Assembly (NCBI GenBank): GCA_002989075.1
Contig: PSQN01000005.1
Coordinates: 1,439,241-1,503,240, forward strand
Origin: Arthonia radiata
Lineage: Eukaryota > Ascomycota > Arthoniomycetes > Arthoniales > Arthoniaceae
Direction of reading: 5' to 3'
Length of the DNA: 64,000 nucleotides
Under the pieces are notes generated by a model. That model saw nothing but the letters and a program-made list of their open reading frames with translations, was not told the origin of the DNA and ran no database searches. The position numbers were made by a program, and so were the translations under genes. Position 1 is the first letter of the stretch; each line of letters begins with the position of its first letter. Shown in pieces: positions 25,019 to 54,536 of this stretch.

Positions 25019-27116
25019 ATGACTGTGAAAAAGGAAGATGGTACCATGTACGGGCACCAAACGTTTTCGCAGCCTGCGCAATGCACACCTGAAGGCTGTG
25101 ATACGGCCGAAGATATTTCTATGCAGCACGCCGGAGACCAGGACGTAGAGTACCAGCCGACTAGTGATGAAAGCGATCTCGATGTGGAATTGCCGGAAGA
25201 CTGCGATTCGCAAGTCGATATAAGTGATCTCGAGCTACCGCAAACGCCATTATCTTGGAGCAGCAGCCATGGCCAATCGAGCAGAAGGCCGGGTGATGGA
25301 GCAGCTCCTCCTCAGAAGATCATCCTGACTTGCGAGAAGTGTGATGAAGACGATCCAACACTGCTGACGAATGATGCGGGCAGAAAAGTCACTCATTGCC
25401 TCAAGCACAGGTAAAGTGAAAGCTGGCTTCCGCCGTGGTTTAAGACATCGATGGGACTGACGTTCCTCACAGAGTGTGGTACGCTATGCGCGGGCGATGG
25501 CAGGCGTGGAAAAAGGCTGATCGTAGTAAGCGCTTGTCTGCCCCCCAGCTGAAGACTCTGAACATCAATGTGTGCCTCGACATGGTCCGTAAATGGAAGG
25601 CAGCTCACAGACACGTCCAACCGTCACCGTTGACAACCGAGAAAGAGGAAGACAGTAAGTGGGTTGATCGTCTGCCAGGCGGCGATACAATTGACACATT
25701 CAAACAGTTCGAGCCTTCATCGAGGACTGGTGGCCCCCTTGGATGTTCGACATGTCATGCAAGTCTGCCATCATCAACGAGGAGGCCAGATTCACGTCTA
25801 AGAAAGACAATAGCCAGTTGTGGAAAGATCCCACTGACACCTCCGTCTTGATACATTTGCATCCAGGTCCTGCAAAAGACAATACATGCAGCACCTGTCA
25901 AGTAGCTCGTGCCAACTATCACTACGCCGACCCTGACAACGAGGGCGAAGCGTTCGAAGTGTGTCTTTACGACCGAGCAGTGGGGTCTTTGAGGGGCGAC
26001 AAACACGTGCGCTCGATGTCGTCGGATAAGTGCAGGGAGAGACTGATCGCGTTCTACGCTCAGTGGGAGAGTGCGATGGTGCAGACAGGACATCCAGTCC
26101 CAAAGGCGGTCCGCGACGCGTACAAGGCGTGGCCTGCCGAGTTTCTGCGGACCGAAGTTTCGTCAACGCGCACAAGCTTCTTTGGAACGGCTCATCGTAT
26201 GCCAACCGCGCGGAGGAGGAAGCCTGAGGAGAAAAGCCAAGTTGATGACGCTCCGATGCCAAAGCGGAAGGGCGTCTCGGTTTCTGGGAAGGCGGTAAGC
26301 AACGTTGGGCTGTCCAACAAGCCGATCCCAACAGAGAAGCCCGGTGATGAGTAAGTCAGGAACGGGTGATTGTCCGTGCTTTGAAGTAGTGCTCTTCAAG
26401 ACGCCATAAACTACAGCTAACACATCAGCAGCTTCCAAATCATCGACTCACCCTACTCAAGGCTTCTTGTTCGCCACGGCCAAGTCAATGCGATGAAGTC
26501 TCCAACACCGAAACGAGTGGCTTCCCCCTCTCCAGTCAACCAACCAAAGCGTGTAAAGCTTGAGGAGCAAGCAAAGCGCCCGAAGCTCAAGAAGCCACAA
26601 GACCAACCTCAGACGCCTACACAACCGTCTCGACAGCGCGGGATGCTCAAAGACCCGCAGCGCCGCCCAAAGATTCAGCAGATGCCACAGCCTCAATGCG
26701 TGGATTTGACCACTGACGATGGTCCGGCTCTCGAGCAGACACTGCCAGTTCCGCAGGCTGAGTCTGTATCGGCGATTCGTGGGCTAAATGCACCAGAACA
26801 GCGCCCGCCTTTTGAACGCCTCCTCGCAAACATCGAGCGACTCAATTCTGAAACCAAGGAGGAGAACTCGAACGAGCAGCAGACGCAGCAGCAGCAACCA
26901 CAACATCTCTCACGTCCCGATCGCATCGCGCACAACGTCGAGCGTCTCCACCAAGCCTTTGCTATTCTAAAGCTAGACTGCACCTCTGCCACCGCTGACA
27001 AAATACTGAACTTCGTCTCAGCAGACCTGTTGGACGCTCTCACCTCAGACGATGTGGTGGCGTTAGCGGGTGATATCGAGGATTTGGTGCAGAAATCGAA
27101 GCGGTGGGGGCGTTAA
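25019..27116 (+). CDS. Novel two-zinc-module family, copy A
   Basis: Exons 25019-25410, 25473-25654, 25708-26350 and 26429-27116 give 634 residues. I do not recognise the family. After an acidic N-terminus comes module 1: Cys105, Cys108, Cys127 and His130 (C-X2-C-X18-C-X2-H) followed by Arg, whose codon is split by intron 1. A Trp-rich helical segment follows (WYAMRGRWQAWKK, then VRKWKAAHRH and PSPLTTEKEED). Module 2 is Cys252, Cys255, Cys277 and Asp280 (C-X2-C-X21-C-X2-D) then Arg, with the internal motif RANYHYADP. A long basic, Pro/Gln-rich linker contains CVDLTTDDG, which resembles a SUMO-interaction motif. The helical C-terminus ends LLDALTSDDVVALAGDIEDL. Intron 3 ends in CAGCAG, so two acceptors three bases apart are possible. 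It lies on the opposite strand and about 15 kb from copies B-F. A nuclear role is a guess. Confidence 0.8.
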
Positions 27117-28261
27117 GGCTTCCCGTGACGGGTTGAATTGATCGCGCTCAGTAGCAGAGCATCAAGTGCTGACATCTTTCGGGTCATCAGTCTCTCTTCA
27201 TCACTCTTTTGTCTTCGGTGTATGAGTATTGGTACCGCTGCTGTACTCGGACTCCAAAAAGTGACGAAACGCTGATACGATGAACTTCATTGGTATCAAA
27301 CATCTGTGACATGTGGGATGGCCTGGCTTTCAGAAGACATTGAGGCTTGAGACTAGCATTTCATGCATCCACGGCGATTCCACGCAGGCAGCTACAGATG
27401 GTCTTGCTGCGAAGACCTGTAATAAGACGTCGTCGCCGATTTAATCCTCCTCGTCAGCTCAAGCGGACAGCTAATGCTGACGGTGTTCATATTCATCCCC
27501 TACAGCGCCTAGCTCTGGGATTCGCATACCTGGTTCATGGTTGACTGTAGCCTCCCTGCTACGGCCGTATTGGTCTCAAAGTTTTGTTTCCCGGCTGTCG
27601 GTACGATGATCCAGCCTCATCACCGCTTCGCCTCCATCGTCTGGCCCGGTCCTCAAATCGGGCCACTGCATCTAGAAAAGCAGTGCATGTGATCATCACC
27701 ACTGTGGAGGATGTGCTTCGAAACCCAAAATCGGCTTTGTTGTTATTAGCGAGGCAGGTAGTTTACTTCTTCACATTGAATGTCTGACCTGGTACTCGCT
27801 TACAAGGACCACCAGATGGAGAGAGTCTTGGATTATTTGCTGTTCATCATTGGCAGGACTGCCCCTCGGTGATCAACCAGTGGTCGGTGATGTGATACTG
27901 TTTCATCATTACCTCCGCGCATCCCATGCGCGGTTGGGTACGCGAAACGAATTACCAGAATGGACAAACCCGGTCTTCTACCTCTTCACCACCGTCAGGG
28001 CTGCAAGAATAAGTATTGGTCTCAGTGGTTGTCTGCTCCTTCGCTCTTGCTTCATCCTCATCTTCCATTTACCTTTGGATCAAAACGTCTTCAACATCAC
28101 GTAGGTCGACTCTCACCACTCCACAGCGACCATTGACTGACACATGCAGCACTCACCGCGAACCTAAAGTAGAACGGACAACACAGGGTATGCTCTGCTT
28201 GCCATACTCCATGTTCACAGTTTCCTCACCGACTAACACCACCAGTCCCCCAAATACAACA
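27117..28261. other. Intergenic region
   Basis: 1.1 kb between copy A and the small secreted protein. Several frames under 90 codons occur but none has a recognisable domain or signal peptide with supporting splice structure. I see no repeat here. Confidence 0.4.
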
Positions 28262-28819
28262 ATGATTCCCACCAACGTCCTCGCCACTCTGGCCGCCACC
28301 CTCGTCGGCATGGCCGCCGCCGCTCCTACCAACAACACCCTCATCGGCCCGCTCGCCAAGCGCCAGTCCGACCCTACCTTCTACGGCCTCTTTCGCCTCT
28401 GGACCGGCACCGACTGCAACACCCTCGGCTCGCCCTGGTTCATCCAGCCGCCGCCTCAGGTTCCTGGGACTTGCTATATCGTCGGTGAGTTCGTTTCTCT
28501 CGTGGCTCATGCACGAGCGTGTGTGTTGTGGTGCCTTGACTGACGGGCTCGTGGATCCCACCGCCGACGGCGAGATCCCGATGTCGTCCAGCGCGGGCGA
28601 CACAATTGCTCAGTCGAGCGGCCACTCACTGAGCGTGTACGAGGATAGCAATTGCCAATTCTTGATGTGGACGTGAGTTCCTGTCCCTCCATGGATGCTG
28701 TGAGATGAAATGGAGTACCGTTCATGCTGATACGTCGCAGAGATAACGGCGACGCTCAGTGCTACAAGACTGGTACTGCGGGCGAGGGCGCGCTCTCGTA
28801 CCGCGTCAATGGGCCGTGA
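28262..28819 (+). CDS. Small secreted cysteine-containing protein
   Basis: Proposed exons 28262-28484, 28543-28672 and 28741-28819, 143 residues. MIPTNVLATLAATLVGMAA is a signal peptide, and LAKRQ suggests a Kex2-type cleavage site. The mature part has four cysteines (DCNTLG, GTCYIV, NCQFL, QCYKTG), enough for two disulfides. It matches the general profile of fungal small secreted proteins or effectors; I cannot name a family. The odd point is intron 1. It has a good GTGAGT donor, and the only frame that continues into the clearly coding second exon (VDPTADGEIPMSSSAGD) begins after a TG, not an AG, since no AG lies in the right phase. Either the acceptor is non-canonical, or the site is mutated, or my join is wrong. 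Intron 2 is canonical (GTGAGT, CAG). Confidence 0.6.
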
Positions 28820-29165
28820 GCGCTTTGAGCTTGTCATCGCTGCTTGATGACAAGCAGTCGGCGCCGTCGGCGTTGCATGCTGTGGTAGCGACGCAGATGG
28901 CGGAAGATATGAGCCAGAGTGTTTGGATAGATCGCTGCCCGTTGGGCGTCCGCTCTTTGGCTGGTTGCATACTCTGAGATGCGATGACATGTAGCGATGG
29001 CGTTGGGGTGGGCCAGATTGCTTGGTGAATGAATGGCTGCTACAGCCTTAGAAACACAAATGTGCTCCGTCTGTTAACATCCAGTAATATTCCGTTCAGC
29101 AAGCTGAGAATGCTGTGTGGATCACACAAGTGCACTTGAAGCTTACCATCTACCATCGCTTGGTC
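28820..29165. other. Intergenic region
   Basis: About 350 bases between convergent 3' ends of the small secreted protein and the short-chain dehydrogenase. Nothing recognisable. Confidence 0.4.
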
Positions 29166-30047
29166 TCACGGCGGCACCTCACTCCCCGCCCAATCCCAAC
29201 ATCGCCCCCTTCCCTCTTCGCCCTTGTCCCTCACCACATCCACAAGCCTCTCGGCCGCGTAATCAGCACTAAACAGCTTCTCTTTCTTCACATTACCCCA
29301 GAACTCCTTACTCAGCCCCGTCTTGACTGTCCCCGGGTGCAAACTCATCGCCACCGCTTTCTCGCCCGCACTCGTTTTCAAATAATTATCAAAAGTTTTC
29401 GTCAACTGATTGACGCCCGCTTTACTAGCCCTGTAGCTATACCAGCCACCCAAGCTATTATCGGATATCGATCCCACCCGCGCGGACATGTTCGCCCACG
29501 TCGCGCGATCCGCTGGTATCACACCACCCGTCTGCTCTTCGCTGAGGTTTATATTCGTGGACTTGCGCGGCAGGAACGGCGAGAAGTGCTTCAGCACCAG
29601 CATCGGGCCGATCAAATTGGTGTCGAATTGCGCGCGTATGTCTTCTTCCTGCAACTGCGCAGGACTCTTCTCAGGCCGCAGTATGCCGGGTATGCAAAAC
29701 GCGAGGTGTAACCAGCTTGGATCTTCCTTGCTGCTTACGAACTTGTTCTCGCAGTCTTCGGCAGCGGCGCGGATGCTGTCTCCGTTTGTAACGTCGAGAT
29801 TTAGGACTGTGAGGCGCGACTCGCTGTCACGCGGTGCTTCGGCGTGGAGGGACGTGGAGGGTTGCATACAGTCGGCTTCGTCTTGGGAGGGAGGTGCCGG
29901 ATCGGCGCGGAGAATTGCGTCTTGGAGCTCGGAGGTTGATGTGCGTGTTGTAGCGACGACAGGAAGAGTAGTCTGGCGGAGGAGACGGCGCGTTAAGGTC
30001 AGGCCTATGCCGCGTGAGGAGGGGGTTATGAAGAGCCATGGGGGCAT
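29166..30047 (-). CDS. Short-chain dehydrogenase/reductase (SDR)
   Basis: Single exon, 293 residues. The start MPPWLFITPSSRGIG was chosen because it places the nucleotide-binding beta strand at the N-terminus, as is usual; the frame is open upstream. SSRGIGLTL stands for the glycine-rich cofactor loop, LNLDVTNGDS for the strand 3 Asp region, and YSYRASKAGV supplies the catalytic Tyr and Lys. LHPGTVKTGLS is the usual post-catalytic loop. This matches the atypical fungal SDR group related to CsgA-like C-factor proteins. Substrate unknown; cytosolic or mitochondrial location cannot be decided. Confidence 0.88.
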   Translation of the reverse strand: MPPWLFITPSSRGIGLTLTRRLLRQTTLPVVATTRTSTSELQDAILRADPAPPSQDEADCMQPSTSLHAEAPRDSESRLTVLNLDVTNGDSIRAAAEDCENKFVSSKEDPSWLHLAFCIPGILRPEKSPAQLQEEDIRAQFDTNLIGPMLVLKHFSPFLPRKSTNINLSEEQTGGVIPADRATWANMSARVGSISDNSLGGWYSYRASKAGVNQLTKTFDNYLKTSAGEKAVAMSLHPGTVKTGLSKEFWGNVKKEKLFSADYAAERLVDVVRDKGEEGRGRCWDWAGSEVPP

Positions 30048-30864
30048 GGTTGTGAAGTCAGCTTGGAGGATGGTGGGCGGAGGTGATGCTGCGGCCGGAG
30101 CAAATACGTTATAGTCAACAGATATAGAAATAGAGGTTCTCAATCAAGTCAGCTGCTTCATGGCGAGCCCGAAAACATGAGGGTTTCATCGTCGTCATTG
30201 TCGTTCCAGATTATGATATCTCGGCGTTAGAAACTCCGCTCGGAGATTATGCTAGCGTACCGCATTTTGGGATGGAGTATTGAAAGAGAATCTTCAACAG
30301 CAGCAACCCGTGCACCAATTTTGCTAATTCTACGTGAGAACATCGCCAAGGTCAACTTTTCGATGCGAACTCGAAGCTACTACTTGCGTCTTCATAAGGT
30401 GGCTGACGAAGGAATGGCGGACAATTTGTCTTCTGCACACTAAGAGCTACGCTAGTACTACTAGCGTACCGGAGCACGTCTTGCTTGGAAGATGTGATAA
30501 ACCAAACACGACAATACATGAACAGAAACCAGATAATGCTTCGATTGATTGTTAAGCCGGTCCTATGATTTCATTGTCTTCTTTACCGCTCAGTCTGTGT
30601 GTGGGCTGTCATCCAGTAGCAAGCGCGGGATGCAGACCCAACACGTTCGACGCCTCGCGGGTATACTCTATATGTATACCTGTACCGGCGTTATCCACGC
30701 GTCGCTGTGATCATGCAGACGCCTTGCAAATGCTGTGTCGTAGCACCTCAAGTCCTTCGGCTTTATCATTGCTGTAATCTTCTCATGTGGGCAGATTGAC
30801 TTAGGAGACGAACAATGACTGCGACTTTGTTCTCCTGAGTTCGCTCTGGTAGACGAAGAAGGAG
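30048..30864. other. Divergent intergenic region
   Basis: About 800 bases between the starts of the SDR gene (minus) and the HeLo-like gene (plus), presumably both promoters. ORFs are under 75 codons and unconvincing. Confidence 0.4.
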
Positions 30865-32278
30865 ATGGACCCTATAAGCATCATCGGCACCGCCATGACC
30901 TTAGCAACGACACTGGGCGGCGTTGCTTCCAAAGCCCGCCCCATCGGCTCAAAATATCGACATGCTCAGCTTTCTTTCAAGATGCTGGCCAGCGAGCTAT
31001 CCACCGTCAAATCGTGCATGGATCGAATTTCCCAATGGGATGCCGGCAGTTGCTCAGATGAGCTGCTTTGCGACGCACAAGCTGCTGTTGACGCCTTGAC
31101 CACGGCAGTGCTGGTACTGGATGGGAAGCTCAACGACCTGAGGCACGATGATGTCGGCATGCTGACAAGAAGGGGTCGCGCGGACCTAGTTTGGAACGAA
31201 GGGAACCTGAAAGACTGTCGAGATATGTTTAGCGCTCAGGCGGTTCTGTTGAATCTGCTTTTGCATTTCTATGATATGTAGGTTGCGTTTTCGGGCCAAT
31301 CTGAAACACTGGCGACTGACGGCTCTTGCGCATAGCAACTCGAAGTCACAGCAACGTAAGGAGCTGCAACAGGACGACACCAGACAAGCATTTCTGGCTG
31401 CTTCCGACGCTGCCTCCTCACTTGGTTGTGCCAATGACTTGGCTCACTCTGCTGCCACGTTTGCTTCGTCTCCGGGCACAGGCGCTCAAAACCGCGAACT
31501 CGACTTTAATGCAGAGCTCTTGGCCTCACAGTCTACCGAAAGGCGCTTGGATCAAGGACTCATGGGCCATCGTCCTCCATGGAAACGCGATCTGCATTGG
31601 ACCAGTGAAGCACTCACAATACGATCCACGCCAAAAATCCTACGTGGTGGGTTCAAGTGAGCCTCGGCGACATGGTCAAAGACTTTCCAATTGACTGGCA
31701 AACGATACGTTCCGACGTGGTAAGCATTTGTTGCTAGTCCATACTGAATTGATGGGTGGGCATGACCTCAATAGGATCTCTTGACATCTCTGCAGTCAGC
31801 TCACCGCTCGCGCCGGTACTTCGGCAGATCTTGGCCTTGGGCCATCGAAGAAGTTCGTTTAATGAGATTGCGGATCCGTCACGCGTGCGGTATCAGAGTG
31901 TTCGAGAAGGACGTGTTCGACGACCCAGAGTTCAGTCTGCAGGCTGCAAGCGTCGGCGCGACCGCAGATCGATTCTTAACGCAAGTTCAAATGTCGATTA
32001 ACAGCCCCTTTGAGCAGGACGCTTGCTGTGTTCTGGACATACAAGAGCACACTAATATTATGGGGTCAAAACAATTCGGGCTGGTGTGGGCTATATTTAC
32101 GGTGTCTGGAACCTTGTTCTCCCTATGGAGCGTCCTTTACGGCTGGGAAGAAGCCTCATCCAGGTCGAAGGTCATACACAGTTGCAATCTCGTGTTGGCC
32201 GGTCTTCTTATATTGTATCTGGTTATTGTCATCATCGTAATGATCTTCTCTCGTAGCAAAGAGCAGAAAGTACTATAG
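30865..32278 (+). CDS. HeLo-like N-terminal domain locus with C-terminal membrane helices
   Basis: Exon 1 (30865-31277) begins MDPISIIGTAMTLATTLGGV and matches the N-terminal HeLo-like helical domain of fungal STAND and cell-death-type proteins. It splices (GTAGGT, TAG) to 31336, whose frame runs on through a Ser/Ala-rich part to 31660. Further on, a frame reading WVQVSLGDMVKDFPIDWQ splices with GTAAGC/TAG to an exon ending at 32278. That exon has FEKDVFDDPEFSLQ, INSPFEQDACCVLDIQEH and two hydrophobic helices, FGLVWAIFTVSGTLFSLWSV and VLAGLLILYLVIVIIVMIF. The link between the two halves (about 31500-31670) is not resolved in one frame. They may be one gene with an intron I cannot place, two genes, or a decayed locus. 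Function is not claimed beyond family resemblance. Confidence 0.5.
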
Positions 32279-32769
32279 GTTTCTGAGTCCCAGGACATGA
32301 TGGCGCCTCTCATCTTTTTACGCGTCAAATAGAGAGTCAGTAGTAAACCCGAATCCATTCACTCCACCACGTCCACCAACTCTTCCTCTGGCACTCGCGT
32401 TGCTTTCGCATACTCTCTTTCTGGGTTTGCAGCAGCATCATATCTGGAGATGTGCATGCGCGACCAAAAGCTCGCCTTGGCCACAGTCCCAGATTCGCAG
32501 CGCTTCTGCATCTGCATTTGCAAAGCCAGTACGGATCCTCGCTGGCCTGGCGCAGCGCAGAAATGCCGAGTATCAGACGCATTGCTTGTCGTCATTCCGC
32601 GCTGCGATAGGGCAGATCGCTCTTCTTCTATGGCCAGGCGGTGCCATAGCCGCGTCGCCTGCCAGTGCATCCACCGCACTCGACTTGTTTGACTGAGCTT
32701 CTGTGAATGCTGGTTCACAGCAAGAGTACTCAGCAGTCTCTCAACATGATCGCAGCCGCTCGCACGTGA
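32279..32769. other. Intergenic region
   Basis: About 490 bases between convergent 3' ends. Overlapping short frames on both strands have no recognisable features. Confidence 0.4.
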
Positions 32770-33932
32770 TCAGACGCCCGGCGGGCAATAGTAGTGTGCG
32801 AAACCTCCAGTCGCTGCTGAAATCGCATCGCCGAGGGGCAGCGTCTGAGTGATGTTCGGCATGCTTTGCAACAGATAGTGCAACTCAGCGCCACCGTACG
32901 TGACGTTGACAGGTTCCAGCGTCACCACGACCAAGCCTGTCTCGCACGCTGGTCGCACACCCAACGCGGCGATGGTCGGCTGCTGCTGGATCGAGGCAAC
33001 GATTGGAAAAGTGTTATTGCCCGGTGCGACCAGGACATCATTGAGGACCGCGCGGCCAATGGACGTTTGATTAGGCGCCGCGTAAACGTTGAACGTGATG
33101 TTGCCGACGTCGATGATGGACGTCGATGGATTCGGAATCGTGGTCATGGCATGAAAGTTGTTCTCTTCCGTCGTGATGTCGACGGTGATGTCAGACGTGG
33201 AGATATCCCTAAGGCCGTTCAGACCGGGGACGGTCACGGTCTTGTTGAAGTGGACGTTCGTCGTTGGCAGCGCGCCAAGCTTGAGATCGGGATGGCCCTC
33301 GACAACGATTGAGTAGCTCTCGCTAGCAATCGCGACGCGGGCGTACTCCTCGAAAGCGGGCATGTTAGTCAATTGCACTGGCTGGTCGGTGACGTTTACG
33401 GTCAGCGGCTTCCGTACGTGCACGTCAGGGAACTTGATCGTCGTGAAGGGGCCCAAAGAACTGCCAGCAATACTGAAAGTGGCATTGAAGGTGCTGAGGT
33501 TGGGGCGGAAGCTCGTCTTGGGCGTCAAGGTGCTGTTGATGCCGACGTGGATTGTATTCGGCGTTGGGCTGGACAGCATGACACCGTCAACAGTGGTCTC
33601 TGTGTCATCAATGTCGCCCTGAGCTATGTGTGGGTAACCCACGTAGACGCTGGTATGCTTGATTAGTATTTGCTGGTCGAATACTAGACTATATCGCACG
33701 AAGAAACTTACACAGGCAGGATAACAATGAGTGCGACGGCAGCAATGATGAAAAGGTGCAGCGGCCACCATCTCTTGAAGCTCTGTCCCAATCTGCCCCC
33801 AAATCGGGGCCCGGGCTTGACGAAGAACGGCGCCTTCCTTTGGCTGCCACCACGAGTCTGTTCAACGCTATGAGTATGCATTGATTTTTCGATGGAGGCC
33901 TCGCTGTCCGATGGCCCTGAAAAGCGCGACAT
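32770..33932 (-). CDS. DUF3712 membrane-anchored protein
   Basis: Exons 33932-33712 and 33649-32770 give 366 residues. The 62-base intron has a GTAAGT donor, a TACTAAT branch site and a CAG acceptor. The N-terminal tail of about 50 residues is polar and basic. One membrane helix follows (LHLFIIAAVALIVILPVVVY), then YVGYPHIAQGDI, which begins a large DUF3712 domain of repeated beta-rich, LEA-14-like character with many Thr, Asn and Val residues and several N-glycosylation sites. Topology is type II: small cytosolic tail, large outside domain. Function is unknown; the family is common in fungal membrane and vacuolar proteins. Confidence 0.85.
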
Positions 33933-34677
33933 TGTGTTGGTGGTAATGGATCAATAGCACAGATGGGGAGGACAGGCAACAGCGCAAGAGAAGACTTGCA
34001 GCCGTGGCAGTAAGATATGATTTCGAGAAAGCGCGAACGCCGAAAGAATTACTGACACCAAGCTGAAAAGTACGCGAGGGTGCGACGCAGATCCGAGTCA
34101 AGCCTACCACTGATTATCGTTAATAATACTGTGGGGCGCCACCGGGTTCACCCAAACGTCTCGCCTCATCGCAAGGATGATGTGACATTACGGGGGTTAG
34201 GCAAGTTCAGGCCGAACACTGCTCAAAACAGCACGAGTGGCCGCGTCAGGGTGCAGCGCGTGATGCGCTGCACTCGGCGAACGGCGAATTTTGCCATACG
34301 CGAAGCATTGCGCAAATTGTGTAATGGCGATGATAGGAGACGAGCACGTCGAGGTAGCATGGGGGACTACGGCCGAAGTCTCAAAGGAGTAGCCTCCGCG
34401 ATAATGTCCGAAAGTAGTAGTTGAGGATGCGGAGCGGATTCTCCTTTGTCCACGACAGCCAATCACGTCCGTCACGGCTGTGAGCTAACTCCGAGTCGGC
34501 GTGGTCAGCAATATTGAATACTAGGGCTGACAAGACAAAGAAGTCTGTGCGCGTGATCATTTGAATATCACTACTCTAACTTTTGTATCGCTAATAGTAA
34601 TTGTCTATGTTCGTAAGCCATCATGAAGTGAGCCTGCTCACGAATTCGCGCGCTCTCCAATTGTCCGTCAATCTAAC
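33933..34677. other. Intergenic region
   Basis: Promoter of the DUF3712 gene and 3' flank of the peroxidase. Frames up to 114 codons are present (for example 34080-34424 plus), but they have no splice support or family match and overlap antisense frames, so I leave them out. Confidence 0.35.
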
Positions 34678-36129
34678 CTACGACGCGTGGTCGCACAAAG
34701 GCGTCGTGGGGGTGTCTTTGAAGTACGTCTTGTAGTACACATTGTTGCCAATATTCTGCTGCACACTGGGAGGTGGGTTCTGCGGACCGCCCTCCTGGTC
34801 TGAGTTCGGATATAAGCTGAAGTTCGGGCTGACGGTGCCACGCGGGCAGCCTAAGATGGAGTCCTCGCCGATGAAAGGTGCAAGCTTGTCCACAGCCCAG
34901 GTGACCGCACTCTCAACGTTGTCCTCAGAACCGATAAGAATCTGCGGCACGATGCTGTTGAAGCCTTGGTAAAAGTCGCAAAGAATAGTCATGGGGTTGA
35001 AGTTGTCTGTGCCGAGCTGGCCGAAGGGCATGCCGACCGGGTTGCGGAAGTATATATTTGGGCCAAACCCGTCGACGAGCGTGGTGACAGCGCCGTATGG
35101 GGTGGCACGGCGGTACCAGTTCTCAGGCCATCGCTCAGGAACATACTCGAACTCGCCGGTATCCTCGTCATACTTGGCGCCGATGATGGAGGAAATGGAT
35201 TCGTAGTTAGGGTCACCGCCCGCGCCGTAAGTGCCGTTCGAAAAGAAGTTGGGGTAGAAGGCGTAGCCGCCGACAGAGACGATAGATGGGAAAGGGAAAT
35301 AGTAAAGGTAAGGGTTGTTTTGTTTGGCGAAGTCTGTCAAGAACATCAGCGGGAGAATACATGAGAAGGAACACTCCAATAGGGCAAGTCTAAGTAAGAG
35401 GAGGCAATAATGATGACATACCCGCTTGAGCACTGTAGTGAGTGCCCATGTTGTAAAGGTCAAACTTCTTGCTGGTGCTGTCCGAGACGATCCCAACGTT
35501 GCGCTTGAAGAGGCGGGAAGAAACGTGATGGTTGTCTCCGCAACCATTGTAGAAGTCCTCACGGTTGGATGAGATGTCAGCCTCGACTGTTGAATGTCTG
35601 TTCAAGCCGCCAGTGTTGCCTGGGTTGGCACCTAAGAGATGGCAAGTCAGCTTACATCGACTGGACGCCTGGAAGTCGTCATACCTAAATACCAAGTTTC
35701 CGTAGCGATATCGCCGTCGGTAAGAATGGCGAAGACGGCGAGCACGGAAGCAAGGTCTGCATCCATGTTGAAGCCACGAGCTGTCGCATCAAGTACTTGA
35801 CCAAAGCTGACGTGACCGTCGTGGGGCAGGTAGCCATAGTTCGCAAGCAGGTTCAGGCCTGGGCATGGACCTCTACTGTCATCAGGTCCGGGCTCCTGAA
35901 ACTCGTAGCCTGGCTCGGGTCGGAGGTTTTCAGGGTCGACTGATGTCGCGACGGAGCCTACGAGGCCTTGGATGGTGTCTGTAAGACTGCCAACGGCGCC
36001 AACCAGGGGACTCAGTGTCCCCACACTGTCGAGGGGGCTGCTCTGACGTTCCTCGACTTTGGGAGCAAAGCCGGGATAAGCAGAAGCAGAAGCGGCGAGC
36101 GAGAGGGCTGCGATCTTGGAGATACCCAT
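34678..36129 (-). CDS. Chloroperoxidase-like heme-thiolate peroxidase
   Basis: Exons 36129-35685, 35631-35422 and 35333-34678 give 436 residues; introns are canonical (GTATGA/TAG, GTATGT/CAG). MGISKIAALSLAASASAYPG is a signal peptide. The heme-ligand motif is RGPCPGLNLLANYGYLPHDG, with Cys89 in a Pro-Cys-Pro context. EADISSNREDFYNGCGDNHH corresponds to the distal region, with the metal-site and acid-base residues. Such enzymes (chloroperoxidase, aromatic and unspecific peroxygenases, sterigmatocystin StcC-like proteins) use hydrogen peroxide for halogenation or oxygen transfer. The length is above short peroxygenases and fits the long secreted group. Which reaction it performs cannot be told. 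Confidence 0.9.
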
Positions 36130-42420: not shown

Positions 42421-42482
42421 TGTTTCTCTCCTAGCGTGCACGCTGTACATATGGTGTTGCTGAACATTCCCAGATGTGTGCG

Positions 42483-43743
42483 TCAAGCGTTGCGTGCGAC
42501 ACTGTTGAGAGCGCGTCCAAGGTCGTCCGCCATGTCCGCATAGTTGGTCGCGCTCAACACGCGACGGAAGTCAGGCGGCAGGATCTTGAAGAAGGCCTCC
42601 GCATTCTTGTTGGATGCGTTATCGCGCAAGGCGGTGACAAAGCGCTCGAATGCCCCAATGTTGGCGATCATGTTGTTATAACGCTGCTGGCGATCAGAAG
42701 CGGAGCTTGGCCCAGGTGTAGAGGACCCGTTCGTGCTGGCGTTACTGCCATGCGCCGGCGTGTTAGACAGGAATTCGGCAAGCCTCTCAGAGACGACGTC
42801 ATCATGCACGCTCTCTTCTGGCACAACAGCTGGCCCAGCAATGTTGGACTCGGGAGACGGCTCGTGGGTGTCGTTGGCTTCGTTGGTGGCATCAGCCTGA
42901 TCCTGATCGGACGCCTCGCTCATTCTAGAAGTAGTCAGTATTATGGCCACAAGTTCCAACGGAGCGATATGATTACTCACGTCGAATCCTCGTCCGTTTC
43001 TGTCTCCGCGACTCCCAGCTCAGGCGATTTTGGACGATTGTTGAACAATTTCTCGACCCAGCCCGGGAGATGAGAATCAATCATGGTCAGGACTATGAGC
43101 GTGAGCACAGGTCGTGATCGTCACAAGATAATCATGACTTACTTTCTTGCTCGCGTTCAGCTGTCAGACCATTAGACTGCTTATGAGCCCAGGTAGCTTT
43201 CCACCGCTGCAACATGGCCAACGCGTTCACTTTGGTACCGTTTCTCAATATCGTCGGAGACTCGCGCGTGGCTTGGTCTCTCTTCTTCCACTTGTTCCAG
43301 CGGGAATACATGTTCTGCCGAATACTGCGTAAACACGTTACTATGGTCACCTCTTTTAACATTTGATGAATGGGGTTGAAATCTTACCGATGGCGCAGAC
43401 ACATGATCATGGGCCTTCCGCGGTCATCTTTTAGCAATGGTGAAGTCTTCGGGACACATGTGGTGCATTTTACGGTGTGACCACGCTTGGATGATTTGCG
43501 AGTTCGACTAGTCGCAGCTCGGGTCGCACGGGTTTTCTTCGCACCAGCGTAGCTGTCGGCGGCTTCGTCGGGGTCAGAATTGTCGTCAGTAGATTCATCA
43601 GCATTGTCGTCAGCAGCTTCTTCAGCATTGAAATCATCGACGCCATCTTCGTATTCCTCAGTTTCCGCGGCATCGACGTAATTGGCGAGGTTTTCCAGTG
43701 CACCAGCAGCCTGGGTTTGCTGGTTGATTGCTTTCCACGACAT
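42483..43743 (-). CDS. Novel two-zinc-module family, copy B (lacks module 2)
   Basis: Exons 43743-43388, 43324-43143, 43092-42981 and 42924-42483 give 363 residues. The N-terminus is acidic, then basic (RTRKSSKRG). Module 1 is Cys93, Cys96, Cys115 and His118, with the same C-X2-C-X18-C-X2-H-R spacing as copy A. Exon 2 is again 182 bases and encodes the Trp-rich segment (MYSRWNKWKKRD, LQRWKATWAH, GLTAEREQE). Exon 3 is only 112 bases, and no C-X2-C module 2 follows; the protein passes straight to an acidic linker (TETDED) and the helical C-terminus (FRRVLSATNYADMADDLGRA). Introns occupy the same phases (2, 1, 2) as in A. The missing module may be an exon-internal deletion. Function unknown. Confidence 0.78.
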
Positions 43744-44985: not shown

Positions 44986-46865
44986 TCAAGTCCTCGACAT
45001 ATTCTTAATAGCCTCAACGACACCTTCAATACCGCTGAACACCTTTGCAGTCTGATCAGAAGCGAGACCATCGAGCAAGCCAGCTGGAATCTTGTCGGAC
45101 AGCGTTTGCGCAAGGCCTGGAGGACAGTCGTCACGCAAGATCGTCAAGATATGAGGAACTTGCTTCGCGGTGTCGATCATGCGATTGAGATCCTCCAGGG
45201 ATCGTGGATGTGAGCTGGATTGAGCGGCTCCAAGACCTTTGGTATTAGTCGTATTAGGATCGCTGCTGTTGGCGACACGAGAGTTGAAGGTTTCGGCTAC
45301 CTGAGCGTTTTTCGTGGAATTCTCGGTGGCAGCAGCCTGCCCAGACGCCAGCGTTGATGTACGATTGCGACGGCTGCGCTGCGGCGCCGTGTTCGGCGCA
45401 GCGGGCTGGACTGTGTCGCTTGGCTCATCCGTGATGTCCATGTGAGACAACGCCGGCATAGAACAGCGGGTGCTGCGGTGCAATCTCGAGTGTGGAGTAG
45501 CGAAGCGACGTCCAGCTGGGGTGATGGACTGACGATCAGCTGGCGGCGAAATGGGTGAGAAGCCAGGCGCTCGTGCGGACTGGAGGGCGAGAGCGCGATC
45601 GTCGGCGTCGGGTGGCGGTGCTGTTGTCATCCTGTGAGACGTGAGTGTGATGTTCAATGCACGGTGAGAAGTAGGGCAAGTCGGAGTTGCGCGGTGCAAC
45701 GAACTCCATGCTGCAACACGGCCAAGCTGACTTTCAGCCGTGTCGATGTCGAGTGAGAGGAAGGAAGAGGCAACTTACTCATAATCCTCGCCGTCATCAT
45801 CCAGATCCAGCGCTCGCTTGCTACCGACGCGTCTGGCAGCTGGGGTCTTCTGCCGAATTCGGGCATTGCGCTGCTTCTGCGTCTCACCGACTCTCCCAGA
45901 AGTGGAAGAAGCCTGGCCGAGGACAATGCTGACGACATCGCGGTGAAGACTCTGCAAACCATTGCGTTGCGACTCTGGGACTTTGAAGCCTGCCACTCCC
46001 ATTGACTTTATCCAAAACTCAAGCTCAGCAACCACGAATTGGTCTAAGATGTCCGCGTCCTCGCCAACACGCACAAGAGCGCCCTCGTGAGAGTGGACTG
46101 CCTGCTCCTGCTTGCGCTCATCAAGGAACTCCTGGGCTTTGACGGCAAGGCGGTCGAAGAGGCAGGACTCAAAGCCGATCTCTGGCTCGTTCGGATCGAA
46201 GAACTGGAAGTTCTCGCGGTTGATGCGGCAGGAGTCGCATTCGTTTGACTCGGGGTTGTTGGGGTGAATGGTGCGCTTCATCGTGCCGGGCGGTGCCCAC
46301 ATGTCTGCTTCGGAGATGCGGCGGTTGGCAGGGGCGTAGCCCGCCACGTAAGGGACGGCCCAATCGGGGACGTAATCGTTGATCATGTCGCGTACTGGAA
46401 CACTCCGTCAGCTGATCGAAGGCATAGCTGTGATGGAGTGGGCGACTTGCTTTCTTCTTCTGCTTCGGGAGAGAGAGGCTTCGGCACAAAGGTGTCCTGG
46501 TAACTTTTCTTCCAAGCTTCCAGCTCGGTGATGGCACGCTCCATCGAATCGGACTTGACTTGCGCCCCGGTGGCTTGGTGGCCGCGCGCCTTCCAAGCAG
46601 ACCACATATTCGAAATGCCTTTGCGGAGGCTGTGAGACTTCATCAGTACTGTGCTATTACAAGATGGAGATAGCAGAAGGCATTACCGATGAAAGAGGCA
46701 TCTCACGTTCGGTACCCCCTTGCTGTTTTTCATGAGAGGTGAGTCGGCTGTACAGCATTTGTTGCAGGCATGTTGTTGGTTGACGACTAATACACCGGTG
46801 TTTAGGTCCACAGTCTTGCTGGTCTTTCTACGCTTGCGCGTCTCTGCATTTGGCGTCGAAGACAT
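44986..46865 (-). CDS. Novel two-zinc-module family, copy C
   Basis: Exons 46865-46687, 46629-46451, 46394-45779 and 45631-44986 give 539 residues. A short basic N-terminus (RKRRKTSK) leads to module 1: Cys34, Cys37, Cys56, His59 and then Arg, with X18 spacing. The Trp-rich segment is NMWSAWKARG, ELEAWKKSYQD and PLSPEAEEE. Module 2 is Cys172, Cys175, Cys197 and Asp200 (X21), preceded by a HPNNPESNEC-type turn and containing NRENFQFFDP. A basic stretch (KRALDLDDDGEDYE) precedes the disordered linker, and a helical C-terminus (LLDGLASDQTAKVFSGIEG) closes the protein. Intron 2 starts with GCAAGT, not GT, at the very place where A and B have GTAAGT, so it is a GC-AG intron. Length and phases otherwise follow copy A. 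Confidence 0.8.
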
Positions 46866-47586: not shown

Positions 47587-49435
47587 TCAGCCAAGACGTC
47601 GCAAATTGCTGCAAGAGTCCAGTATCCCCTCGATATTCACGATGTACTGTGGGAGCGCATCGGTCTCAAGCTCTCTCCGCAGCCCTTCCCGAAAAGACTG
47701 GTACAACTGGTTGACCAGCCACGGCGGCGCCTCGTCGCGAATCCTCGTCAAGGTCCGAGTCACTGCTGCAGCGTTGGCGATGGCTGCGTTCAGATCCGGT
47801 GATGCTGACCCGGTGTCAGGATTTGGGTTGGGCTCGGCAGCCGCAGGGGCCAATGACGGCGTGCTGTCGGTCTCTTGGACGTCTGCGTGCTCTGAGGGTG
47901 CTTCTGTCATCCTATTCATCGTCAGCATGATTATTTCTTAGATTGATTGGCTCACTCGCAACAAGTTGGAAGCTGCGCTGTGCCGTGCCGAGTCGTACTT
48001 ACACTTCATCAGCATCAGCTGCATTAGCTGCATCAACCGCATCAGCTGCATCAACCGCATCAGCTGCATCAACCGCATCAGCTGCATCAACCGCATCAGC
48101 TGCATCAACCGCATCAGCTGCATCAACCGCATCAGCTGCATCAACCGCATCAGCTGCATCAACCGCATCAGCTGCATCAACCGCATCAGCTGCATCAACC
48201 GCATCAACCTCCGCAGATGGCTCACGACGAGCGATAACAGCCCCTGGCACGTCCTCGTCCTCGAGCTCACCCCAGCGAGCAGACGAGGGAGGATGCTCTC
48301 GCTCATTGATGCCAAGATTGCTGTCGTGATGATCTGGGCGCAGCACACGGTGGATGAGCTCGGCGCACCACTGCTTCAGTTCTCCCTGAACATCTTCTGG
48401 TACGGCGTACCCAGACTCCTCTACAGAGTCCATCCACCTCTGGAGAAACCGCTTGAGGTACGCGATCATGGGCTCTTGGAGTCTACCGAGCTGTTCGGGC
48501 GACATGGAGTGCTTGTCGTGCTTCACGTTGTTAAGGTCCTCATAGATACCATCGAAGATGATACTAGCGTTTGCATCCACGAAAAGCGAATCGCCGAGCC
48601 GGTCGAACAGACAGATCTCAAAAGCGTCGCCATTCTCGTCTTCCGGTGCAAGATACTGATAGTTGGAGCGGTGAAAGTGGCACATCGGACACTCGTTGGT
48701 CTTGGGATTCCTTGGGTGGATCCGCACGTGTGCTTCGGTCGCTGGCGCCCACATGTCATCATCGGGGACCCGTGGCAGATCTGATCCACCGGTATTGTGT
48801 TGCATGGAGATACTAGTCAGATCGACACCATCGCCTGACAGCTTCTCGTGTAGCCACTTTTCTCGAACCTTTGGAGGCGCGGCATTGTGAATACACTCGA
48901 AGACTATAAATACCTGGTTAGCCATGGACAGCATCAGGCGCATCTAACAGGGAGCATACTCTGGTCCTCCAGCTCCTTGGTAAGAGGAGAAGGCTTGACA
49001 TCCTTATGCTTCTCTTTCCAGGCCTGCAAGAGGCTCATATTGCTCGCCACAATCTTTGCCTTGATCTCGGCTGTTGTTGGTCTCGCTTTGTGGCTCTTCT
49101 TCCATGCAGTCCAAGCGCAGCTGACATTGTGGTTGATGCTATAAAAATATCAGTACTCCTTCTTGAGGGTCGAAAAAGGTGACCTACCGGTGGTATAAGC
49201 ACAGCGTGCGGCTAATCCCCTTTCCATCGATCATCAACACTGAATCCCCGGGGCAGCAATTGGCGCAGTTTTTGCTCTGCTGCGTCTTCCCATCTTGCTT
49301 TGAAGGTATCTTAACGTTGACTTTGGGCTGAGTGGTCTTGCTCGCTGCCGCCCGCGGTCGCTTACTGCGGCTGCTCATGGTCATATCAAATACTTCGGCT
49401 TCTAAAGAAGTGCGCTGGTTATGTGACCTCTTCAT
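47587..49435 (-). CDS. Novel two-zinc-module family, copy D
   Basis: Exons 49435-49188, 49138-48960, 48903-48003 and 47911-47587 give 550 residues. Module 1 is Cys57, Cys60, Cys79 and His82 (X18), then Arg. The Trp-rich segment reads CAWTAWKKSHK, LLQAWKEKHKD and KPSPLTKELED. Module 2 is Cys214, Cys217, Cys240 and Asp243 (X22), preceded by IHPRNPKTNEC and containing RSNYQYLAP. The helix EELKRFLQRWMDSVEESG-like region follows. The linker contains ten perfect copies of an 18-base unit that adds an acidic (Asp-Ala-Val-Asp-Ala-Ala) repeat. The C-terminus (LVNQLYQSFREGLRRELE) is helical. Introns sit at the family positions. A second ATG 17 codons in would give MTMSSRSKRPRA and is also possible as the start. 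Confidence 0.8.
48029..48209 (-). repeat. 18-base coding minisatellite in copy D
   Basis: About ten near-perfect copies of GCATCAACCGCATCAGCT on the plus strand. Read on the minus strand these encode a hexapeptide repeat of Asp, Ala and Val. Unit length is a multiple of three, so changes in copy number keep the frame. The near identity of units against a highly diverged gene family indicates recent expansion or ongoing homogenisation. Confidence 0.9.
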
Positions 49436-50119: not shown

Positions 50120-50397
50120 CTAGCTAGACGCCCGTGCCAAATTTTCCAACATGCCATCAATGTTCTGCGCAGCTCTTCGTACGTTGCCCGATGTCATCTG
50201 CCACTGCATGGGTCCGAGCATGGCTTCGCAAACCTCGTTAGCCACCTTTGGCGACGTCCGGTCGCGCAATCGAATGAGCGATTGCTGGAGCAAGCTAACG
50301 TCGCTGATGAACTGCTCAACACTTGCACCGCTTGTTGGCAATGCACTGAGCTGTCCAAGAGAGGATGCTTGGTAATTGTTGGTGGCCGGCTGCTCCG

Positions 50398-50428
<31 letters not shown>

Positions 50429-51613
50429 TGGTGGTGGTGATGGTGATGCATCAGTCATGGCTGTGTCTTCAGGGAGCTCAGCCGGTGCTGACTCTTGCAC
50501 CGAAAGCCGTGCGCTATCCGACTCCAGCGGCAAGGCGCCAGACTGCTGTAGTGGAGCACTACTCGCTTGCGCCTGCGAAGGTGGATTGCGATCATTCGGA
50601 CGTGGAAAAATGAGGCGCGCGACAAAAGCAGTCGCCCATGTCGTCAGCTCAGTCACAACCTCATCAGGCACATCAAATCCGGCGTTATCCATCGCGTTTG
50701 TCCAATCTGACAGATAGGCGCTGATGAAGTCTTCACAGGGCTTCTGCAGCCTAGCACCGGGGTTCGTATCGTTGCTGATGCCGTGCTTGTACTCGCCAAG
50801 ATCGACACGTTCACCCTTAATGAGCCTGCCTTCCTTGGCAGCCTTGACCAAGAACCCTTCCGCGCGACAGGACAGGCAGTCCGCGAAAGCTTCATTCTCA
50901 TTGTTACCAACAACGTAGAAATGGTAGTTTGCCCGCTTCCGACCGCAAATGTCGCAGACGTTCGATTCGGAATGGCCTTGAGGCTTCGAGATTTGTTGTT
51001 CAGGGACAAGGCTCGCAGGATCGACGAACATTGTTTGTTCATCATTAAGAACCATGGAGACGCGGCGCGACTGCCATGTGCTGATCAGCCCTCTAACTAT
51101 ACGATTCATTAGTACTGTACATGATAGCATTTAGGACAGTCAGATTCACTTTGAGCCTCAGCTTGTGCTGATAGAGGAAACGGTGTAACGTCCTTGTATG
51201 CTTGCTTCCACCCGTCAAGTTGCTCATATGCTTCCTCGATGATGTTCTGCCTCATCCTCGACGGTGCATCTCTATTGCGAGGATCCGTCTTGAGCCACGC
51301 GTTCCACTTGGTAGACATATTTGCAAGGGCACTATATTCTAGTCAGCCGAATTTGCGAAGGATGTTGTAGCTCACAAGCGTAGAAAATATGAGCTCGAGC
51401 CTACCGGTGCTTCAAACAATAGTTCTGAACAATTCCATTGGCTTTCTTCATTAGAGCTGGATTGTTGGTGTTGCAACCCTGCTTCGTGCACTGAATCCAG
51501 CCTCCTCCAGTTGCTGCGGGTAGTTGGGCGGCGCGGTGGGTTTCATCTGCTGACGCAGCCACGCGTTTGCGTGTGTTGACCGTGGTTGACGGCTTTGTTG
51601 GATCCGCGTATGT
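50120..51613 (-). CDS. Novel two-zinc-module family, copy E (5' end unresolved)
   Basis: Exons: up to 51613-51405, then 51331-51150 (182 bases) and 51096-50120. Module 1 has a wider first gap, C-X4-C-X18-C-X2-H-R (QCTKQGCN ... YCLKHR). The Trp-rich part is MSTKWNAWLKTD, LDGWKQAYKD and FPLSAQAEAQ. Module 2 is C-X2-C-X22-C-X2-C-R (NVCDICGRKRANYHF ... DCLSCR), a full four-Cys version. Copy E lacks intron 3: the linker, a run of 13 prolines and the helical C-terminus (VANEVCEAMLGPMQWQ) follow in one exon. In the module-1 frame there is a stop at 51616-51614 and no ATG before the module, so either an upstream exon exists that I could not find or the start is lost. At least about 450 residues otherwise. 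Confidence 0.65.
50395..50450 (-). repeat. Trinucleotide run encoding polyproline in copy E
   Basis: GGC then GGT triplets on the plus strand (about 50399-50440) encode a run of prolines on the minus strand. It is a simple in-frame microsatellite inside the disordered linker and is expected to vary in length. Confidence 0.85.
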
Positions 51614-52467
51614 TTAGAGGCTGTCGATGCTTGCGCAGAAATGCTTGCTGAGTCGAGGCTCAAAGTTTGGGTGATTGTGAGTTGTTCAAATAAGGAGGAT
51701 TGTGGTAAGATTTAGGAGGTGCAAGAATTTGACGTGCGAGATTTGCAGGTTGCTAGCAAAAGGTAGAGGTGCTGCAAGTCCGCAACGCGTTGTTTATTTG
51801 CAAGTGCCGATCGTGCACCTTTTTTTCCTGGTCGCCAAGTTATGAGAAATTTTCTCCGACCGCTCAATTTAGCCTCGGTGAAGATGATCAAGGCTGATTG
51901 CTCGTGCGATGTATTTTGTTACGGAATTTCACCTCCGAGTCTGGCTTCACTGAAGCGTGTTTGCGGTAATATATATATGATGAGCTTTGACACAACGCTC
52001 GCGTCAGTATGACGCAGCTGTTGCCTGGTCACATTCCGTTTGCATCAGATCTTGCGTAGATCCAGAGCCGTAACGAGGCTGATGTCAGCTGAGTGGAGAA
52101 CATCTGTCTCTATACGCCAGGATTTGGCTTTCGGCTATTTTTAAGAAACAAAAAGACGCCAATAGCTTCGAAGGCGGAATAGACGGTTAAACTCGACTTT
52201 CTACACAATGCGTGATGAATGAAATGCTGTTCCCTTGCGGAAGTCGCGGCTATTCGAAGGCGAACCGATCTGGCGGTCATACAATCGCTAATGTTGCTGT
52301 CTTCAATGACAAGCACTTCTACGATCATCATACTGCCAGTCAACCATCTCTTCCCTCCTCGTACATTATGATTGTCTCTTTCTTGTTGTCAGGAGATATC
52401 GTACCTAACGCGCTAATGTCTATTGTCGCACGTGTGAATGGACTTTGACAAGCCAAGATCCTAATGC
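51614..52467. other. Spacer between copies E and F
   Basis: About 850 bases, likely holding the 5' end and promoter of copy E. No other gene is supported; frames are under 80 codons. Confidence 0.4.
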
Positions 52468-54536
52468 TCATTCAATCTCGAGCGCCTGCAGGCTAGTAAG
52501 CGAGTCGCGAGCCGCAGCAATCGTAGTTTGTGATTTCTTTTTCATATTGCGCAGGGGGAATTTGAGGATTGCGTCTGCCTCATCATAGCCATGCGCTTCA
52601 ACCATGGCCTCCACTTTGTCTGCTAAGGCCCGACAGCTCTCAATGATTGCGCGAGCGTCGGAGAGCTTGTCACCTCCAGACTTCGGAGCGGGCCCGCTCG
52701 ATGACTGCGAACGAGCGGGCGTTTGCAGCTCATGGTTGTGCTTACCGAGTGGTGACTGTGACTTATTCGCATCGACGTCGTTCGAGATGAGTGGCGTTGA
52801 GGCTGATTCTTTCAATGCCTCAGCCAGCATTGGCTGGTTGCCGTTACCGTTATCGGCACTGTTTGCTTTCCTGGATTCGTTTGGCTCAGGCGAACTGGAA
52901 GAGGTCTGAGCTACGATGTAGCTTGGAGGGGGCTGTCCGCGTTTGGGGGCTTGACGACGACGTTTGGCGAAGACTGCTGGCTCAGCAGGTGTATCCAGTT
53001 CTATAGAGGGATTTCGACGTAGATTCTCATCTGTGAGAGCTTGGAACTAGTTTTGCGCTTTCGGCTCTTTCGGTCCGGACGAAGTGGTGCGTCCGAGTCG
53101 CCATCTTGCACCTCGGCAGCATGCGTGGCGATGGGCTTGTTGGAGATCCACAAAGCTGTGTTAGCGTTCACTGAGGAGGCGGCAAAGGCGTCAATCGCTA
53201 CGTCGCGTAGCGAATGGTCGGTGGTACGAATGTCAGGCGGTAAGCTCTTCTGCGTCTCGGCGTCTGCGCTTGTGGGTGCATGAGCACTTGATGCCTTTGT
53301 GTGCTGCGGATGAGTGGAGGAATCAGGAGCGACTAGCGACTCATAACGCTGGGGGGCAGGCGACAGCGCTGGCTGTGCTCGGACTTTGCCATCAAACATG
53401 TTCTCCAGCATGTCCCAAGCCCAGTCGGTGGCCCATATGAAATCTGTCACGCGTCAGCTGCATCGAGCTGAAAGTATACACAATTGACTTACACTCTTTT
53501 TTCAGCGGACTGGGAGCCTGCCAACGCATATGCTCCTTCATCGCACTCGCCCACTCGTTCCACTACGCCGTTAAAGCGTGCAAAAGCATGCCACGGAGCG
53601 TCTTGTGGTCGTCACGGATGATACCTCGCTCAAGTTGGGCGCTGATCTCTTTGAACGCCACGTGTTCTGTTACCTCGCAGTGCTTGATAGCCTCACCACT
53701 TGCGCGGCATTTGATGCACTCAAGAAATTGATAGTCGCTGTCGGTCGGGTCAACATAATTATAGCTCGGAAGCCATCGATCTTCGCAACCATCGCACTTG
53801 TTGTCGTCCGCGTTCAACGCATGCCCATCAGTGCATCCTTCAAGATCTAGCGCAGTCACCTTCCCGCTAAAGCGTTGTGATCTAATTCTGGTACGTGATG
53901 GCGGTTGTGTAGTGGATGCAGAAGCCTTAAAGTCACCGCACTCCTCTGCTGAGCGGCCTACTTTGGCGCACCTTCCACAAGGGCGACGTTTGTCACAGGC
54001 CCAGTGTCGCTTGATGCAAAGTGGACACCGGCTTGTTCCATCCCCACCTTGCTTCACTTTCTTTTGGACCCTCTTCAAACGCTTTGCTGGCAATTCTTCT
54101 GCCTCGTCTTCAATCGTGTGACGGTAGGGCAGGAGGTACTGTGGCGCTGGCGCTGTGGCCTGGATCGCCATTCGGACTGCAAAAGTCAGAATTGTCGCTG
54201 CGACTGGTTCAAATACTTACTATCGTTTTCATCTGCCTCGGAGAGGGGCCAGGGTCCGGTATACCACGAGCGGATTTTGTTCTTCCATCGCCTCAAGTAA
54301 TCGTTCTCCACCTTTCGCACATCTTTCTTCTTGTCTTCGACCGATGGAACACCAGAAGTACTCTTGCTCCAGGCCCACCAGATGGCGTTCATGTTAGCTC
54401 TGATGCGACACTTCACACAACGAGTCTTCTCGTCTTTCTGTCCATGATGGAAGAGAACTTCTTCTTTCATCTCGCCGCAGCCGGGGCATTTCTTGGGCTC
54501 CCTGCTGGGCTTAGCAGCTAGAGTCGGTTGCTCCAT
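52468..54536 (-). pseudogene. Novel two-zinc-module family, copy F, fused to a Zn2Cys6 cluster; apparently broken
   Basis: Reads from 54536 (MEQPTLAAKPS). Intron 1 is absent: module 1 (Cys17, Cys20, Cys40, Cys43; C-X2-C-X19-C-X2-C-R) runs directly into NMNAIWWAWSKS, YLRRWKNK and WPLSEADEND. Intron 2 is 54177-54220 (GTAAGT, CAG). Then comes a fungal binuclear-cluster signature, Cys156, 159, 166, 172, 175 and 185 (C-X2-C-X6-C-X5-C-X2-C-X9-C), with basic RLKRVQKKVK before it. Module 2 is Cys233, 236, 259, 262 (X22). In the next helix the frame hits TAG (53565-53563) exactly where copy A has AQWESAM-like sequence; the same frame continues WNEWASAMKEHM, so a Gln codon was probably lost. An intron (53492-53444) leads to YFIWATDWAWDML, but near 53031 the frame must shift to reach the C-terminus ending at 52468. 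A pseudogene is the simplest reading; a shorter protein ending at the TAG is possible. Confidence 0.6.

Follow-up and report, generated by a model that had tools for sequence, protein, structure and literature searches.

An apparently lineage-restricted family of anciently diverged genes with two putative zinc modules in Arthonia radiata

The fungal GATA finger (PF00320) has the pattern C-x2-C-x17-20-C-x2-C, adopts a treble-clef fold and recognises (A/T)GATA(A/G). The Zn2Cys6 (GAL4-type) cluster follows C-x2-C-x6-C-x5-12-C-x2-C-x6-9-C, and treble-clef fingers, such as those of ArfGAP, LIM and zf_Tbcl proteins, present two pairs of ligands separated by about 15-20 residues. Within the GATA class, a passage of PMC7457929 gives Leu at loop position 7 as a mark of animal-like fungal fingers.

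A 64-kb window of the Arthonia radiata genome (the window being the whole stretch of DNA analysed) contains six paralogues, A to F, with A on the plus strand and B to F in tandem on the minus strand. All six carry a motif designated module 1, C-x2(4)-C-x18(19)-C-x2-[H/C]-R, and five of the six also carry module 2, C-x2-C-x21(22)-C-x2-[D/C]-R. Together with copy G, on another contig, they bring the family to at least seven anciently diverged copies in the genome. The exon/intron structures listed here are models predicted from the sequence.

25019-27116, plus strand: copy A, 634 aa; exons 25019-25410, 25473-25654, 25708-26350 and 26429-27116; GT-AG introns, no internal stop
25331-25411, plus strand: copy A module 1, C-x2-C-x18-C-x2-HR; intron 1 splits the Arg codon
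25887-25976, plus strand: copy A module 2, C-x2-C-x21-C-x2-DR
42483-43743, minus strand: copy B, 363 aa; exons 43743-43388, 43324-43143, 43092-42981 and 42924-42483
43387-43467, minus strand: copy B module 1, motif match
44986-46865, minus strand: copy C, 539 aa; exons 46865-46687, 46629-46451, 46394-45779 and 45631-44986
46686-46766, minus strand: copy C module 1, motif match
46150-46239, minus strand: copy C module 2, motif match
47587-49435, minus strand: copy D, 550 aa; exons 49435-49188, 49138-48960, 48903-48003 and 47911-47587; linker with an Asp-Ala-Val repeat
49187-49267, minus strand: copy D module 1, motif match
48599-48691, minus strand: copy D module 2, motif match
50120-51544, minus strand: copy E, at least 432 aa; exons (51544 or higher)-51405, 51331-51150 and 51096-50120; poly-Pro linker
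51404-51490, minus strand: copy E module 1, C-x4-C-x18-C-x2-HR
50864-50956, minus strand: copy E module 2, C-x2-C-x22-C-x2-CR
52468-54536, minus strand: copy F; exon 54536-54221, an exon from 54176 on, and a C-terminal ORF at 53046-52468
54405-54488, minus strand: copy F module 1, C-x2-C-x19-C-x2-CR, with no intron within it
53938-54027, minus strand: copy F Zn2Cys6 (GAL4-type) cluster, C-x2-C-x6-C-x5-C-x2-C-x9-C, between modules 1 and 2
53704-53796, minus strand: copy F module 2, C-x2-C-x22-C-x2-CR
C2:2151667-2152179, outside the window: copy G, intronless, module 1 only

A to F form a genuine gene family. A regular-expression scan of the six frames of the window found module 1 six times and module 2 five times, and all 11 matches lie inside A to F; the chance expectation for both modules together is about 0.1 per window, as estimated from 100 windows simulated with a first-order Markov model (means of 0.07 for module 1 and 0.05 for module 2, maximum 1 each). 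Downstream of module 1, a Trp, a second Trp and a Trp-Lys pair are invariant in all seven rows of the A to G alignment. A helical C-terminus of about 65 residues is detected in all six window copies by an HMM, which was built from the same six rows plus G. By eye, B, C and D show basic stretches close to module 1, and A shows them in its linker. The models also share introns: intron 1 (phase 2, within the Arg codon of C-x2-H-R) is common to A-E, intron 2 (phase 1) to A-F, and intron 3 (phase 2) to A-D. The initial annotation, which described a six-member family of one layout, placed the six genes and their strands correctly, including the side-by-side arrangement of B-F, and is now extended by the seventh copy on C2. 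The single layout needs correction: B lacks module 2 (the unit-2 HMM has no match there), and F has the additional cluster and an in-frame TAG. Likewise, the spacing said to be kept almost exactly is near constant for the cysteines only, since the distance from module 1 to module 2 varies among copies.

The copies are very diverged. In an all-against-all phmmer comparison, with E-values computed for a set of just seven proteins, scores run from 119-122 bits (C/D) down to 6-7 (B/F). Protein identity among A, C, D and E is 22-31%, and nevertheless the ligand pattern and its Arg are kept. Codon identity among the same four copies is 0.49-0.56 at position 2 versus 0.27-0.33 at position 3; third positions are near saturation and second positions are conserved best, in agreement with the old divergence that had been proposed. 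The phmmer scores, codon-position identities and shared introns argue for paralogy and for constraint at the protein level, and the kept ligand pattern makes selection on a metal-binding scaffold plausible.

An opposite account, which we consider unlikely, is that the array is eroding, with old duplicates relaxed from selection, some of them pseudogenes and most with little function. Consistent with erosion are the in-frame TAG of F (53565-53563, minus strand, where an unrecognised intron is the alternative), the absence of module 2 from B, the first exon of E, in which no in-frame ATG was found, and low-complexity tracts in D and E. However, the spliced frames of A, B, C and D are open throughout in the models, and ligands, introns and C-terminus persist at the low identities given above, as does the better conservation of second codon positions. 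The description of the family as expanding is doubtful in view of the strong divergence between copies, the missing module of one and the stop codon of another.

Searches with known families named no relative. In Pfam, none of A-G reaches any family's cut-off, whether the seven module-1 rows were taken singly or full-length A-D and the ORFs of E, F and G were used, and no family relative turned up among 5.77 billion proteins in either of two profile searches, with six-row and five-row profiles. The RAD1 protein of the window, whose gene is 3-15 kb away from the array, was used as a comparison in the same database and has 2085 homologues there, with identities in named species of 89% (Coniocarpon cinnabarinum, the best), 75% and 73%; a further contig encodes RAD1 at 88% identity. 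The family thus looks lineage-restricted: relatives of the host are represented in the database, and neither profile search returned a family member from it; the earlier labels of unrecognised and lineage-specific fit these results. It is improbable, in our estimate, that the family is instead wider and fast-evolving and was simply missed. The protein search requires shared 5-residue words, so that remote orthologues of members only 22-31% identical could escape, and the database does not contain this genome's own proteins (there is no 100% RAD1 match); both profile searches and the presence of the host's relatives speak against such an escape.

Among the described domains compared, module 1 seems nearest to the GATA finger. 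Aligned by hhalign with a profile of the eight GATA fingers of this genome, it scores 24.0 (probability 62%, E 7e-5), and none of 150 shuffles with fixed Cys columns reached that score (maximum 19.6). The 24.0 comes from an 8-sequence profile, whereas the ArfGAP and LIM decoy sets comprised 1-3 sequences each; taken one by one, the GATA fingers score 12.0-20.7 and overlap the LIM/ArfGAP decoys (8.8-16.7), with only 4 of 8 exceeding the best LIM decoy. ArfGAP (10.6-12.6) and LIM loci (8.8-16.7) fall within the range of the shuffled GATA profile, zf_Tbcl matched one of seven members at E 7.7, and copies A, E and G, taken singly, score no better than decoys. Module 1 shares with GATA the C-x2-C pair, an 18-residue loop, a C-x2-ligand pair, which in G is predicted at the start of a helix, and basic surroundings. 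Two loop residues agree with the genome's own x17 GATA fingers: Leu at position 7, in five of seven copies (A-E), and Gly at position 13, in six (A-E and G). In contrast, it lacks the CNAC-G-L signature, the GATA loop Trp is replaced by Leu, Met or Phe, and what follows it is a helical segment rich in Trp and then a second module unlike GATA. The fourth ligand is His in six of seven (A-E and G) and Cys only in F, which has a C4 arrangement and a 19-residue loop. PF00320 had no match up to E 10 in the module-1 rows of A-G, full-length A-D or the ORFs of E, F and G, and a PDB search with the module 1 profile gave no GATA chain at E up to 10. Module 1 may resemble a GATA-type finger whose fourth Cys is mostly replaced by His, and for this module the earlier statement that no named domain has this signature may be too strong.

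Copy F carries a cluster, CPLCIKRHWACDKRRPCGRCAKVGRSAEEC, that fits the Zn2Cys6 pattern and is preceded, by eye, by a basic stretch. Its CDxxRPCGRC core is similar to that of two clusters at other loci of this genome, with the best match at 46% over 37 aa. Unlike GAL4-type proteins, it occurs in this family only in F, between the modules and in a gene with an in-frame stop; Pfam Zn_clus had no match up to E 10 at window positions 53566-54216, and no fungal transcription-factor domain was matched in the scanned pieces of F. A cluster of this DNA-binding type speaks for a regulatory role.

Module 2 shows no similarity to GATA (44 of 100 shuffles score as well). Units 1 and 2, each a module plus the helices after it, can be aligned by hhalign across 76 columns at E 0.009, a result equalled by 2 of 150 shuffles. 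Beyond unit 2 of its own five genes, the unit-2 HMM matches unit 1 of F best (E 0.23). These alignments suggest another possibility, doubtful but almost as likely as the reading preferred below: a new, non-GATA zinc-knuckle domain, duplicated within the protein, that would be a scaffold for proteins or RNA and not a regulator that binds DNA. No sequence search named a known domain, and both AlphaFold2 models (mean pLDDT 55 and 68, low to medium confidence) are mainly helical; that of unit 1 of G (pLDDT 68) has helices and not the GATA beta-hairpin, and fold searches gave no usable match. However, the signal between the units is weak (probability 4.5%), hhalign places module 1 closer to GATA than to module 2, and F contains its DNA-binding-type cluster.

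The reading we tentatively prefer is that these paralogues are lineage-restricted, probably nuclear, zinc-stabilised proteins. A full member would consist of two zinc-knuckle units, with Trp-bearing helices after each of them, a linker that is basic and disordered, and finally the conserved helical C-terminus. Module 1 would be a GATA-type finger turned C3H by the Cys-to-His change and still C4 in F, binding DNA, perhaps with module 2, beside basic NLS-like stretches; the helical parts would make protein contacts such as dimerisation, and the paralogues would serve as diverged regulators of transcription or chromatin. A more specific version, rather unlikely as a whole, is a new, arthonialean-restricted two-finger domain in which a GATA-derived finger with the Cys-to-His ligand switch and a Trp-rich helical module were joined, duplicated internally and spread as tandem nuclear regulators.

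As just another fungal orphan family, these genes would be of modest interest. If the preferred reading is true, a new zinc-finger architecture arose in one fungal class, seven paralogues in one genome differ in module 2, introns and a Zn2Cys6 cluster, and the origin of orphan regulators would become testable in a lichen-forming lineage.

The safest statement about genes A (plus strand) and B to F (a minus-strand tandem array) is that they represent an undescribed paralogous family with conserved Cys/His knuckles, apparently lineage-restricted. The patterns of module 1 (C-x2(4)-C-x18(19)-C-x2-[H/C]-R) and module 2 (C-x2-C-x21(22)-C-x2-[D/C]-R) have 6 and 5 matches in the window, respectively, always inside these genes; in 100 random windows generated with the same first-order composition, the mean numbers of matches are 0.07 and 0.05. 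When HMMs of unit 1, unit 2 (each module plus the Trp-bearing helices that follow it), and the C-terminus were run against the 1927 window ORFs, only family genes, among them the rows used in building, fell below an E of 0.2. Codon position 2 is the best conserved and position 3 is near saturation among A, C, D, and E (six pairs).

Spliced models of the six genes were predicted from GT-AG introns, with homology helping to place them. The ATG-to-stop frames of predicted A, B, C, and D are open (634, 363, 539, and 550 aa, respectively). The E frame stays open for 432 aa or more, and its exon 1 has no in-frame ATG. The F frame is open across module 1, a Zn2Cys6 cluster, and module 2, and then reaches a TAG at 53565-53563; the family's helical C-terminus lies beyond it, within the ORF at 53046-52468. 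The predicted models share a phase 2 intron within the Arg codon of C-x2-H-R (A to E), a phase 1 intron after the PLxxExE segment (A to F), and a phase 2 intron before the last exon (A to D), an agreement that is not fully independent evidence because homology guided intron placement. In the D linker, a tandem Asp-Ala-Val-Asp-Ala-Ala repeat (about 48010-48209, minus strand) is in frame throughout. The array is an old one in partial decay (B, F, and perhaps E); thus, the word "expanding", used for the family in the initial annotation, should be dropped.

Around these genes, about 2 kb upstream of A, successive plus-strand ORFs at 17700-22735 with PNP_UDP_1, NPHP3_N (NACHT-type), and ankyrin repeats probably constitute an NLR-like gene of the fungal kind. 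On the minus strand, 14250-15275 has a CPAF-like PDZ domain together with a peptidase S41 segment. Between A and the array (29166-35601, minus strand) lie short-chain dehydrogenase and DUF3712 ORFs; peroxidase family 2 also has a match there, under its cut-off. The GC content of 1-4000 is 31-39% versus 50-57% in the remaining window, as a RIP-mutated repeat would show.

When parts of A, C, D, E, F, and G were used as queries against all six frames of the 33.5-Mb genome, together they matched the window copies and a further copy on contig C2, designated G, which was recovered with pieces of D and E:

L012:850-1956 (genome sequence C2), minus strand: G, seventh member, intronless, module 1 only, from the six-frame search

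No single search recovered the full set; F exon 1 found only F, and G only G. Because the genome search scores best candidates only, the family has at least seven members. The intronless G ORF (343 aa from the first likely Met) has the Trp segment, a module 1 with C-x4-C spacing, and a questionable C-terminus, and lacks module 2. Its phmmer match to each of A to F is weak but repeated (14-27 bits). Its neighbor, labeled by eye, is a NUDIX-like ORF.

That the family was unrecognized, as first proposed, held up when the profile and Pfam checks were run. Pfam gave nothing above cut-off for full-length A to D, the ORFs of E, F, and G, or single modules. Among 5.77 billion proteins, a cleaned five-row profile gave 3305 candidates, none of which reached an E of 10 or lower, in a search that needs shared 5-residue words, so that a fast-evolving orthologue could escape; the first profile, of six rows, had a single, low-complexity match. 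In the same database, the window's RAD1, a conserved control, gave 2085 matches at E up to 1e-10, the best 120 including Coniocarpon cinnabarinum (89% identical), Alyxoria varia (75%), and Chrysothrix (73%), which we take to be Arthoniomycetes. Fungi, near relatives of the host included, are thus well represented in the database. This genome's RAD1 is not among the matches listed (best 120 of 2085), indicating that the host's own proteins are absent from the database. PDB sequence searches gave no credible match, and fold searches with predicted structures nothing specific. The predicted structure of module 2 of D, modeled with four relatives (mean pLDDT 55, pTM 0.51), has a helix starting directly after the third Cys, where a treble clef would place one, with confidence there of about 50. 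That of unit 1 of G, modeled with six partial relatives (pLDDT 68, pTM 0.50), has four helices, one beginning at the second ligand pair.

By eye, the module 1 loop (S/P-x-L-L/M-K-x3-G) resembles that of GATA fingers. Against a profile of 8 GATA fingers from the same genome, the module 1 profile scores 24.0 (probability 62%, E 7e-5), a value reached by 0 of 150 Cys-column-fixed shuffles. ArfGAP (2 sequences) and LIM loci, used as decoys, score 8.8 to 16.7, a contrast that is partly due to profile depth; taken singly, the GATA fingers score 12.0 to 20.7, with four of the eight above the best decoy. Single copies score 14.8-18.2 (B, C, D, F) or 8.7-10.7 (A, E, G) against the GATA profile. Since GATA was chosen after the sequence was inspected and three families were compared in all, this likeness is a lead. 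Unlike a GATA finger, module 1 has His as its fourth ligand in six of seven copies; it fails as a formal member of the GATA family.

Units 1 and 2 align across 76 columns (E 0.009, probability 4.5%), with 2 of 150 shuffles scoring as high. Beyond its TAG, F has the stretch WNEWASAMKEHMRWQAPSPLKKE, which by eye closely resembles the end of unit 1. These signs of an internal duplication that may relate the two units are suggestive only.

F also carries an extra cluster, which resembles one elsewhere in the genome, at C11:452540-452650 (46% identity across 37 aa):

53938-54027, minus strand: Zn2Cys6 (GAL4-type) cluster in F, between modules 1 and 2

Confidence in both GATA-derived regulator readings is slightly reduced because single GATA fingers overlap the decoys in score. 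The fuller one, rather improbable as a whole, would be an arthonialean-restricted two-finger family of tandem nuclear regulators, with a GATA-derived finger, a Cys-to-His ligand switch, a Trp-rich helical module, and internal duplication. Our best guess, a tentative one drawn from the GATA profile lead, basic stretches, and the Zn2Cys6 cluster of F, is that the family may encode zinc-stabilized nuclear DNA-binding regulators, partly GATA-finger-derived.
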